From an uncultured Chthoniobacterales bacterium (lineage in GTDB: Bacteria > Verrucomicrobiota > Verrucomicrobiia > Chthoniobacterales > UBA10450): 64,000 nucleotides of DNA. How positions within the stretch are numbered: position 1 is the stretch's first letter; each line of letters opens with the position of its first letter. Positions 58,929 to 62,230 of the stretch are shown here, piece after piece. The stretch spans positions 1 to 64,000 of the forward strand of contig CADCTA010000107.1 of NCBI GenBank assembly GCA_902805675.1. Reading direction: 5' to 3'. Below the pieces are notes generated by a model, which saw nothing but the letters and a program-made list of their open reading frames with translations, was not told the origin of the DNA and made no database searches. The translations under genes were made by a program, and so were the position numbers.

Positions 58929-59351
58929 CTACTTCGTCCGCCCCTCATCGAACTCGATCAGGTCGAAGTAGGTGCGGATATCGTCGCGCCCCTCGCCTCC
59001 TGATTCCTTCAGCACGTGGAGGAAGCGGGCGCGTTTCACCGCTGAGTCGGGATACCGTGAAACCATCGCATGGTTCCACTCCTCGATCTCTTCGGGTGAA
59101 TGCTTCACTGCGTGCTCTTCGATCCAACTGAGGATCGCGGCGTCGTCGTCGAGCCGGTTCGCCGCCGCCTCGAATTCGTCGGGATCAATCTTGAGGAACG
59201 CCAGCAGATGCTTGTCGAAGCCGACGGACTTGTAGTTGTAGCCGTCAAGCAACCCCTTGCGGTGGAGCTTCGCCTTGTCGATCAGACGCGGGAGATGCAC
59301 ATACCCGCCGAGTTTCTCGTAGGGACTTCGCGGAACCTGCTTTTTGCGCAT
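58929..59351 (-). CDS. DUF5069 family protein
   Basis: 140 residues: PRSPYEKLGGYVHLPRLIDK, GYNYKSVGFDKHLLAFLKID, ILSWIEEHAVKHSPEEIEEW and RTYFDLIEFDEGR match DUF5069 proteins, of unknown function and typical of Verrucomicrobiota and Planctomycetota. I chose the ATG at 59351; the long upstream part of the frame lies in the bactofilin gene. It begins 13 bp after that gene's stop. Confidence 0.8.
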   Translation of the reverse strand: MRKKQVPRSPYEKLGGYVHLPRLIDKAKLHRKGLLDGYNYKSVGFDKHLLAFLKIDPDEFEAAANRLDDDAAILSWIEEHAVKHSPEEIEEWNHAMVSRYPDSAVKRARFLHVLKESGGEGRDDIRTYFDLIEFDEGRTK

Positions 59352-59364
59352 CCAGCCCGGAGGC

Positions 59365-60243
59365 TTACGTGGCGGGAAGCGGCGGGACAATGCCCGGCAG
59401 CATCCCATCGTCCGTGCGACTCGATGCCGCCGCGGCTGGTGCCGGCTGCTGCTGCGGCAAAAGTTCGGCTTGCTTGAGGCCGCTGCTGCCAATCACGAGC
59501 TGACCGGAGAACACGCCGCCTTTTTCGACGCTGATGGATTTCGCCGTGACGTCGCCGTCGAGAGAGGCGTTGCGATGAATCACAACGACTGTCTCGGCAA
59601 CGACCTCACCGGTCATGTGACCGCGAATCTCGATGCTCTTGACGCGGACACGGCGGAAAAACTGCACCTCCGCTTTGCGTTCCACGAGCAGGTGATCCGC
59701 AGTGACGCGGCCCGGAATCTTGCCGCTGTAGTTGACCGTCGCGGTGCCGGCGCAGTGGAGATTGCCGCGCACCTTCCCCTCGATCAGCGCCGAGCGGCAC
59801 ATGACGCTGCTGCTGCTGAGATCACCCTTCGAGGTAACATGCACCTCGCCGTGCGTGCGGATGGCCCGGCTAAATGGCGTGTTGATCTTGTAATCGCGGA
59901 GATCGAGATGCGCGCTGCATTTCGGGCAATTCGTCGAGCTAGCGGCAGAATTAACCTCGGTCTTTGCCTTGCAGTCGAAGCACTCGACGACAGAGTTGCG
60001 CGGCTTGCTCCACAGCCCGTCGAACTTCCGGAGCAGCGACGCTCCCTCCTCGGCGAGAGACGGCCCGGAATTCTGGTCGCGCACCTGCTGCTGCGCCGCC
60101 TTCACCTCCGCCTTGGGCGCGGAAGGTGAGAAGGCGCCGCCGCACTGCCGGCACATCGTGCTCTTGGCGGCAGCATACTCCATCTGCTTAAAGCCGCAGT
60201 GTGGACACTCCACACTGAGCTTAGCAGGACCGGTCTTAGCCAC
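59365..60243 (-). CDS. Bactofilin-type protein with two N-terminal zinc ribbons
   Basis: 292 residues. A first zinc ribbon (VECPHCGF...MCRQCGGAF) and a second (VECFDCKAK...NCPKCSAHL) precede a bactofilin-type beta-helix of repeated 10-12-residue strands (SALIEGKVRGNLHCAGTATV, IPGRVTADHLLVERKAEVQF, IRGHMTGEVVAETVVV). An Ala/Pro-rich tail follows. Bactofilins form cytoskeletal filaments. The doubled ribbon is not usual and could bind a partner or nucleic acid. It follows another bactofilin gene by 30 bp. Confidence 0.82.
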   Translation of the reverse strand: MAKTGPAKLSVECPHCGFKQMEYAAAKSTMCRQCGGAFSPSAPKAEVKAAQQQVRDQNSGPSLAEEGASLLRKFDGLWSKPRNSVVECFDCKAKTEVNSAASSTNCPKCSAHLDLRDYKINTPFSRAIRTHGEVHVTSKGDLSSSSVMCRSALIEGKVRGNLHCAGTATVNYSGKIPGRVTADHLLVERKAEVQFFRRVRVKSIEIRGHMTGEVVAETVVVIHRNASLDGDVTAKSISVEKGGVFSGQLVIGSSGLKQAELLPQQQPAPAAAASSRTDDGMLPGIVPPLPAT

Positions 60244-60273
60244 TGGTCGCGCGGGGGGCGAAGGTGGCGGTGA

Positions 60274-60690
60274 TTAGCGGCCGAAAGCGGCTTTAGCGGG
60301 AGCGGCTGGAGCGTCGTCGCGGACGATCTCAGGACGCGAATTGGCGCCGCCGACCTTGGCGCCGCTGGTGGTGACTTCGGACTTGCCGATGAAGGTGGCG
60401 CCTTCCTCGATGACGAGGCGGGCTGCCTTCAGGTCACCTTGGAGTGTGCAGCGCGACTTCAGTTCGCAGCGCTCGCCGACGGTGATGTTGCCCTGCACTT
60501 TGCCGAACACGGTGATCGACTTGGTCTTGATTTCGCCGCGGATGTCCGCGTTTTCGCCGATCGTCAAGACACCGTCAGAGTTGATTTCGCCTTCGACTTT
60601 GCCGTCGATGAGGAGCTCTTTTTGGAACTTGATCGAGCCTTTGATTTCAACGTCGCTCGAGAGGATGTCTTTGCCAGAATGGTCAGCCAT
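60274..60690 (-). CDS. Bactofilin (polymer-forming cytoskeletal protein)
   Basis: About 138 residues: KDILSSDVEIKGSIKFQKEL, DGKVEGEINSDGVLTIGENA, KSITVFGKVQGNITVGERCE and CTLQGDLKAARLVIEEGATF form the right-handed beta-helix. I chose the ATG at 60690. A GTG at 60837 would add 49 residues, but the promoter at 60843-60871 would place it at the start of transcription. Confidence 0.85.
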   Translation of the reverse strand: MADHSGKDILSSDVEIKGSIKFQKELLIDGKVEGEINSDGVLTIGENADIRGEIKTKSITVFGKVQGNITVGERCELKSRCTLQGDLKAARLVIEEGATFIGKSEVTTSGAKVGGANSRPEIVRDDAPAAPAKAAFGR

Positions 60691-60842
60691 AGGATTTTTT
60701 TGATCGGTGTTTGGTGGTGATGTTCGCGAAGGCTCCTCGCGGGGTGCGAGGCCTCCGTTTGTGTCATCGTTGCCCGCGCTTAACGATCCTTCTCCGATCG
60801 ACGACAGGGGCTTTTGCGGGATGAACTTCTTTAACACGCGGC

Positions 60843-60871: not shown

Positions 60872-60984
60872 CGGCTTCCGGGGTGAGATCGAGGATTTTT
60901 GTGGGTTTTCTGAAGAAGGCGCACTAGACTTTTTGCCCGCTCCGAGCGGTTCATCCCGCACCTCCGCAGGCGACATCAGAGCGG

Positions 60985-61057
<73 letters not shown>

Positions 61058-61114: not shown

Positions 61115-62230
61115 TTGGCGCCCACGCGGCCAAAAAAGGCGGCGTCTCTGTGGAAGAAAACGAGTGTGCCTGGACTGCGCGTCTACAAACCGACGGGCCA
61201 GTATTACGCCTACTTCAAGGCGAACGGCAAGCCCGTCAGCAAACGATTGGAAACGACCGTTCGCTCAATTGCCGTGCAACGAGTGCGTGATCAGAAGGCC
61301 CTGCACCGCGGTTCTCAGCAAACCGCCGCGACGAAAAAGATTCTGACGTTCGGCGACGCGTTGGCGGAATACCGCCACATCGTCGAGACCGCCGTCGACA
61401 AGAAGGGCTCCTCGAAAGACTACCGCGAGCAGACGATCGTGGCACTGATCCGTTCCTGGCCGGGTTTGCTGGAAACGGACACGCGGAAGATCACGGAACA
61501 CGATTGCCGCGAATGGTCGAAATCCTTCTCCGCTGCGTATAGCGCAAGTAGGTACAACAACACGTTAGGGACGCTGCGCGGCGTTCTCCAGATCGCCATC
61601 GATCAGGGCTACTTCACGCGCAACGCGGCGATGAACATGCCAAAGATGCGGATCGTGGACAAGCCTCTGACGCTACCAGCATCGGACAAGTTTCAAGAGT
61701 TCGTCCGAGCGATTCGAAGCGGAGGTGGTCGCTTCTCCGACGAGGCCGCCGATCCCGCGGAGTTCCTCTCATACAGCGGCTGTCGGAAGGAAGAAGCGGC
61801 ACGCGCGACGTGGGGCCACGTAAATTTCGGCAAGAATGAGCTGACAATTCTTGGCGACCCGGTGACCGGCACAAAAAACTGGAGCTATCGGACTATCCCG
61901 ATGGTCGCGCCGCTGCGAAAGCTTTTGCTGCGCATGAAGGCCAAGCTGCTCGAGTCACCGAAAGCGGCCGAACCGATCTGTCGGGTACGAGAATGTCAGA
62001 AGTCCATGGACCGGGCGGCGCAGGAAGTAGAGATCACGCGCATGACGCATCATAACTTGCGGGACCTTTTCGCGACGGAGTGCATCGAGGCTGGTGTGCC
62101 AGTTCCGACCGTTGCGTTGTGGCTCGGCCACCGTGACGGAGGCGCGCTGTGCATGAAAAAATACGTCACTCCGCGCATCGGCGCCGGGCATGACGCCGCC
62201 GCACGCGTGAGCTTCGGGCAAGAAAAGTAG
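61115..62230 (+). CDS. Tyrosine-type site-specific recombinase (phage-like integrase)
   Basis: 371 residues with an N-terminal arm and core-binding part, then a catalytic domain: Arg224 in SGCRKEEAARATW, His313 and Arg316 in THHNLRDLFATECI, His339 in LWLGHRDGGAL and the nucleophile Tyr350 in MKKYVTP. All five expected catalytic residues are present, so it may be active. The frame begins with a TTG at 61115; a GTG at 61166 is an alternative. It lies 57 bp from the 5' end of the tRNA, on the opposite strand. Confidence 0.88.
   Translation: MAPTRPKKAASLWKKTSVPGLRVYKPTGQYYAYFKANGKPVSKRLETTVRSIAVQRVRDQKALHRGSQQTAATKKILTFGDALAEYRHIVETAVDKKGSSKDYREQTIVALIRSWPGLLETDTRKITEHDCREWSKSFSAAYSASRYNNTLGTLRGVLQIAIDQGYFTRNAAMNMPKMRIVDKPLTLPASDKFQEFVRAIRSGGGRFSDEAADPAEFLSYSGCRKEEAARATWGHVNFGKNELTILGDPVTGTKNWSYRTIPMVAPLRKLLLRMKAKLLESPKAAEPICRVRECQKSMDRAAQEVEITRMTHHNLRDLFATECIEAGVPVPTVALWLGHRDGGALCMKKYVTPRIGAGHDAAARVSFGQEK

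Follow-up and report, generated by a model that had tools for sequence, protein, structure and literature searches.

Bactofilins are widespread, and little is settled about the way in which they reach their clients. They polymerize without nucleotides, a conserved C-terminal phenylalanine is tied to their polymerization, and an N-terminal membrane-targeting peptide is common, although not universal, among them. Among described systems, the closest precedent for the adaptor role considered below would be, by analogy, BacC of Rhodomicrobium vannielii, which is reported to bear an extra domain, to lack both the N-terminal peptide and the conserved phenylalanine, and to form filaments only with BacA (PMC10259793). 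In Myxococcus xanthus, the BacNOP proteins are described as several co-assembling bactofilins that serve chromosome partition together with PadC and ParABS (PMC5703909), and in Caulobacter ZitP is reported as an instance of a bacterial zinc finger whose binding partner is a polar scaffold, PopZ (PMC5182065).

The locus reported here lies within a window of 64,000 nucleotides, that is, the whole stretch of DNA that was analysed, and its nearest named relatives are Chthoniobacterales, Spartobacteria and Candidatus Udaeobacter, all of the phylum Verrucomicrobiota. It comprises three successive minus-strand genes, coding for a plain bactofilin, a two-ribbon bactofilin and a DUF5069 protein, with gaps of 30 and 13 bases between them (Table 1). 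The earlier note had described this succession, with two CxxC-CxxC ribbons ahead of the beta-helix of the second bactofilin, and Pfam confirms every element of it on the minus strand, the ribbon protein scoring 74.5 bits against a curated cut-off of 27.9 for Bactofilin (PF04519). The range that it gave, 59365-60690, covers the ribbon gene, but leaves DUF5069 outside and falls short of the likely beginning of the plain gene. On sequence grounds, the most likely start of the latter is not the internal ATG (60690) but the GTG at 60837, where 48 of 48 family relatives have a start codon and then L[KR][KR]F (hence M-L-[KR]-[KR]-F), a count that leaves out ORFs below 150 residues and the fragments in loci L079, L080 and L083. 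One further bactofilin match of the source genome is found on contig C58. Upstream of the pair, a tRNA-Met gene (60983-61057) sits beside a phage-type integrase (61115-62230, PF00589), a possible integration site for mobile elements. At the opposite end, the ribbon protein terminates in PLPAT (59368-59382); P289, A290 and T291 hardly vary across 46 family rows, and this ending may represent a short binding motif.

Table 1. Features of the bactofilin locus. Residues of the ribbon protein are numbered from the alanine that directly follows the start codon.
Feature	Position	Strand	Remarks
Plain bactofilin, 187 aa	60274..60837	-	PF04519 95.8 bits; N-terminus MLKKFIPQKP, membrane-targeting-like
Zinc-ribbon bactofilin, 292 aa	59365..60243	-	PF04519 74.5 bits, in two stretches; start GTG 60243
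Ribbon 1, residues 12-33	60142..60207	-	CxxC-x14-CxxC; Q19 and R31 invariant, E21 nearly so (46 family rows)
Inter-ribbon linker part, residues 43-67	60040..60114	-	Probably flexible; pLDDT <50 (42-69 in ribbons-only model)
Ribbon 2, residues 87-108	59917..59982	-	CxxC-x14-CxxC; beta-helix directly after
Extra N-terminal beta-helix part, residues 111-149	59794..59910	-	Exceeds length of solved bactofilins
Canonical bactofilin beta-helix, residues 150-251	59488..59793	-	6rib Z 13.8; F244 at the place of Thermus F105
DUF5069 protein	58929..59351 (likely start)	-	PF16798 136.2 bits; 13 bases downstream of ribbon gene

Like BacC, the ribbon protein of the window is a bactofilin with an adjoined extra domain and without an N-terminal membrane peptide, encoded beside a plain bactofilin. 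Unlike it, BacC carries a cadherin-like domain located C-terminal to the bactofilin domain and is described in one species. The conserved phenylalanine, missing in BacC, is present in the window protein (F244), and is replaced in 35 of the 37 ribbon relatives beyond the order. The M. xanthus BacNOP proteins differ from the window protein in that no zinc ribbons are mentioned for them in the accessible text of PMC5703909. With ZitP the window protein shares a small N-terminal ribbon of four cysteines, which in ZitP connects to the polar scaffold, and the region of ribbon 1 matches it weakly in fold (Z 3.0 over 43 residues, rmsd 4.8); unlike the window protein, ZitP is described as a transmembrane protein with a DUF3426 domain and no bactofilin domain (PMC5182065). 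Finally, the solved bactofilins of Thermus thermophilus and Caulobacter (6rib, 6ria and 2n3d) display the same beta-helix, but have no ribbons and about 40 residues less of helix.

The conservation of the ribbons was assessed on 110 related loci, 50 from the family (L035-L084) and 60 further ones, 20 of them drawn at the level of the order and 40 at that of the phylum. A ribbon protein is present in 106 of the 110, a proportion to be read with two selection biases in mind, since the family loci were collected with six search peptides of which two include ribbon cysteines, and the further loci were picked mostly from better whole-protein matches. The four exceptions are L080, whose ribbon contains masked bases, L083 and L084, which are truncated at the end of a contig (ribbon 1 of L084 still shows its two CxxC), and L170, where a plain bactofilin stands with no ribbon partner detected. 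Together with the window locus, these loci yield 220 bactofilin ORFs, 107 of which carry the CxxC-x14-CxxC pattern, 78 twice and 29 once, and the starts of the two CxxC lie 18 residues apart in 185 of 185 ribbons, the window protein included, when measured without any imposed spacing. The locus counts and this constant spacing rule out chance CxxC pairs, and the conservation of the ribbon cysteines in homologs, on which the earlier note had made its case depend, is thus borne out. Besides its cysteines, ribbon 1 has near-invariant Q, E and R residues, and ribbon 2 of the two-ribbon proteins shows S-T ahead of its second knuckle. The ribbon adjacent to the helix exists in one-ribbon and two-ribbon proteins alike, and in 68 diverse rows, reaching down to 18% identity with the window protein, its four cysteines and one glycine are the invariant positions; these rows were selected for carrying the motif, so that the locus count is the fairer test. 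In one family (L136 and L138), the linker between ribbons reaches a length of about 200 residues or beyond. By their pattern these elements are zinc ribbons, and they would be expected to bind zinc, although the window protein exceeds no curated zinc-ribbon cut-off in Pfam (Zn_Tnp_IS91, 20.1 against 26.3; DZR, 16.3 against 27.3) or, likewise, in NCBIfam. In the one-ribbon proteins from outside the class (L150-L173), an N-terminal motif resembling [DS]G[FYL]xx[VIL][RQK]A lies some 55 residues before the ribbon, at the place of the missing ribbon 1, in 16 of 22 proteins by pattern and in several more by eye; it might constitute a second docking peptide.

A plain bactofilin precedes the ribbon gene on the same strand, with ORF ends within 400 bases, in all 106 loci that have a ribbon protein. 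Whole-protein searches return a match in 57 of 61 family genomes and 98 of 117 order genomes, tallies that take in every kind of match, plain bactofilins among them; in the order-level search, one family (f13) gave no match in any of its 17 listed members. In the combined search for ribbon and bactofilin that had been proposed for this architecture, a profile match including a ribbon was obtained in 69 of 240 sampled genomes of the Verrucomicrobiota. All 69 fall among the 93 genomes with any bactofilin match, and 86 genomes hold a bactofilin over the cut-off. Two genomes of the same order with 0.9 million bases each (G067 and G076) keep a bactofilin, with no match that includes a ribbon. The sampling for the ribbon form covered two phyla. 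In the second, to which a Proteiniphilum genome belongs, the profile finds a match in 127 of 198 genomes; among the matches listed, however, all begin at model position 33 or beyond, past the ribbon, and the best E-value among them is 3e-15, against 5e-22 for the weakest ribbon-including match of the home phylum. The ribbon form is a paralogue found across the phylum, in much of the Verrucomicrobiota. An oddity local to the source genome is ruled out by the family, order and phylum matches, and spread by plasmids or viruses was likewise rejected, with no match in plasmid records and no confirmed relative in viral contigs. The claim that the design is not common among described bactofilins holds for the literature, in that no ribbon bactofilin is described, and no paper with both terms found, in titles or abstract openings of open-licence articles (subscription journals and preprints lie outside this scope); the design is, however, not peculiar to the source genome.

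The helices of 69 ribbon and 67 plain proteins separate cleanly in a tree (support 0.997, no misplaced tip), which is unrooted and built from short, diverged sequences. The two groups also differ at their N-termini. The start of the plain proteins of the family, with its L[KR][KR]F, resembles the published membrane-targeting consensus MFSKKKK (PMC12448750), and under a looser pattern a membrane-like start is present in none of 47 ribbon proteins of the family. Under the same pattern it is seen in 7 of 20 plain proteins from the rest of the order, 11 of 16 from the wider class and 0 of 24 from outside the class, and, on the ribbon side, in 4 of 16 proteins of the wider class. The N-terminal difference is thus not universal, and neither would be a division of labour between plain and ribbon proteins. 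Outside the family, some ribbon proteins themselves bear a membrane-like N-terminus ahead of ribbon 1, among them those of L135-L138, by pattern, and those of L122 and L146, by eye. The third difference concerns the polymerization residue. The phenylalanine at the position of Thermus F105, with which F244 of the window protein aligns, is kept in 103 of 105 plain proteins (two ribbon-protein fragments, from L080 and L083, being excluded), and in 10 of 11 ribbon proteins of the family, 12 of 20 of the order and 2 of 37 beyond the order; judging from these alignments, it is mostly lost in ribbon proteins outside the order.

The predicted structure of the ribbon protein (mean pLDDT 80.5, pTM 0.60), which contains no metal, consists of two ribbon-like parts and a beta-helix spanning residues 111-252 approximately. 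The solved bactofilins align only within residues 148-258 of this model, 6rib with Z 13.8, rmsd 1.8 and 30% identity over 98 aligned residues, 2n3d with Z 12.8 and 6ria with Z 11.3, so that some 40 extra helix residues separate ribbon 2 from the canonical part. Equally high scores come from unrelated beta-helix proteins, such as the Tapirin domain 6n2b with Z 14.9, and therefore the identity of the protein as a bactofilin, by profile and by fold, rests on sequence and fold together. The ribbons modelled by themselves fold weakly (mean pLDDT 67.1, pTM 0.32), and their fold matches are weak and generic, the best at Z 4.0, with Parkin domains and ribosomal S27e (3.9) near Z 4; in Foldseek, no match at E 0.001 or better appears among those listed. 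Within the matches listed, a specific fold relative of the ribbons was rejected, all of them being weak and generic for zinc ribbons.

Our assessment leans, by a modest amount, towards the two genes forming a two-component bactofilin cytoskeleton, in which the ribbon paralogue is an adaptor that joins a membrane-bound plain filament and presents its ribbons to a partner. This view draws on the conserved ribbons with their single spacing, the constant plain neighbour, the separation of the paralogues, their unlike N-termini, the longer predicted helix with its confidently modelled ribbon 2, the changed polymerization residue and the precedents of BacC and ZitP. The plain bactofilin would bind the inner membrane through its M-L-K-K-F N-terminus and polymerize, and the ribbon paralogue, which in the family of the window lacks the membrane peptide, would enter the plain filament through its beta-helix, either laterally or end to end. 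Ribbon 2 would then rigidly cap the longer helix on its N-terminal side, and a client protein would dock on ribbon 1, borne by a flexible linker, the machineries of wall building or of chromosome partition being the likeliest kinds of client. The suggestion of the earlier note that the ribbons link the filament to DNA, RNA or a membrane partner fits this anatomy as regards a partner in general, but in the family the ribbons are unlikely to provide a membrane link, because the membrane-type N-terminus sits on the plain partner and not on the ribbon form. Several observations count against the adaptor role: some genomes have a bactofilin without the ribbon form (86 against 69 of 240); the ribbon protein of the window may polymerize by itself, because it has F244; under the looser pattern, plain proteins are without a membrane-like start in 13 of 20 cases in the order, 5 of 16 in the class and all 24 outside it, and some ribbon proteins of the class possess one (4 of 16); the ribbon counts are affected by the selection biases described above; no curated zinc-ribbon cut-off is passed and the model is without metal; and, by analogy, the M. 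xanthus paralogues BacM and BacNOP can work independently (PMC5703909).

The gene neighbourhoods bear on the nature of the client. We clustered 7717 ORFs from about 6 kb around the pairs, passing over opposite-strand, shadow-like clusters by eye and identifying some of the remainder, with family models run on one to four members per cluster. A DUF5069 gene occurs no more than 6 kb away in 46 of 50 family loci, against 3 of 60 further ones, which all belong to the same order, and this scarcity outside the family rules it out as part of a core system. A gene for a membrane-protein-like product also recurs in the family (L043:3202-4803 and 36 other loci, 37 of 50 in all), preceding the pair in many relatives; the L043 member has no Pfam match. 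Among the 36 further loci inside the class, a pyridine nucleotide oxidoreductase is encoded upstream in 17 and a uvrA-like gene downstream in 7, all of one genus. In the 24 loci outside the class, argC is found upstream in 9, and downstream there is a murC-like ligase gene in 11, with murC as best match yet below its cut-off in the three members examined, and parB in 7 others. These neighbourhoods outside the class favour a link to wall synthesis or chromosome partition.

The seven parB genes follow the ribbon gene directly and on the same strand in seven different families (7 of the 60 further loci), with 4-36 bases between the ORFs in five loci and overlapping ORFs in two. They were found by clustering, with family models run on four, and HTH_ParB is present at that place in all seven genomes, being the only such match in six. 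It is this arrangement that could suggest nucleic acid, or a protein of the nucleoid, as the target of the ribbons, so that the pair would tie the chromosome, via ParB or directly, to a membrane-bound filament. The weak likeness of the ribbons to ribosomal zinc ribbons (S27e, Z 3.9; L37Ae, E 0.079) points the same way, as does the reported positioning of ParABS by BacNOP in M. xanthus (PMC5703909). Nevertheless, we regard this explanation as unlikely: the HTH_ParB match of the source genome is on another contig (C54), no parB cluster occurs within about 6 kb in any of the 50 family loci, and other far loci have the murC-like ligase gene (11) or the uvrA-like gene (7) next to the pair. Moreover, the adjacency has a counterpart in M. 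xanthus, where parAB adjoins bacM, yet BacM acts in cell shape, in the same account (PMC5703909), and zinc ribbons bind proteins too, ZitP being an example (PMC5182065). A broader version of the idea would give the Verrucomicrobiota a two-part cytoskeleton of their own, whose membrane-bound and zinc-ribbon bactofilins would jointly tether ParB to the envelope and, with it, the origin of replication. The adjacency to parB outside the class would then be a trace of the ancestral function, and the second ribbon would have been added later or in particular lineages. This version strikes us as distinctly improbable.

We give similarly little credence to zinc sites that are purely structural, with ribbon 2 capping the end of the helix and limiting or stopping filament growth, so that the ribbon protein would be a cap or length regulator and not a docking adaptor. 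In the model, residues 81-120 form a block of pLDDT 92-97 that takes in ribbon 2 and its junction with the helix, which would be compatible with a capping geometry; a ribbon directly before the helix in both kinds of ribbon protein and the loss of the polymerization phenylalanine in most distant relatives are also consistent with a terminating role. Such a role, however, leaves unexplained a first ribbon placed on a poorly ordered linker and provided with conserved Q19, E21 and R31, as well as the linkers of about 200 residues or longer in L136 and L138. It is very unlikely that an old duplication left two unconnected paralogues next to each other with separate jobs, an idea for which the separate action of the M. 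xanthus paralogues (PMC5703909) could be invoked. Order and strand are kept in 106 of 106 loci across the phylum, which, with the 30 bases between the window genes, points to a selected operon.

Under the adaptor role that we favour, a conserved bactofilin with its own docking-type module, encoded beside a plain partner, would offer a ready system for the study of mixed filaments and of client recruitment, in a phylum, the Verrucomicrobiota, whose cell biology is little known.
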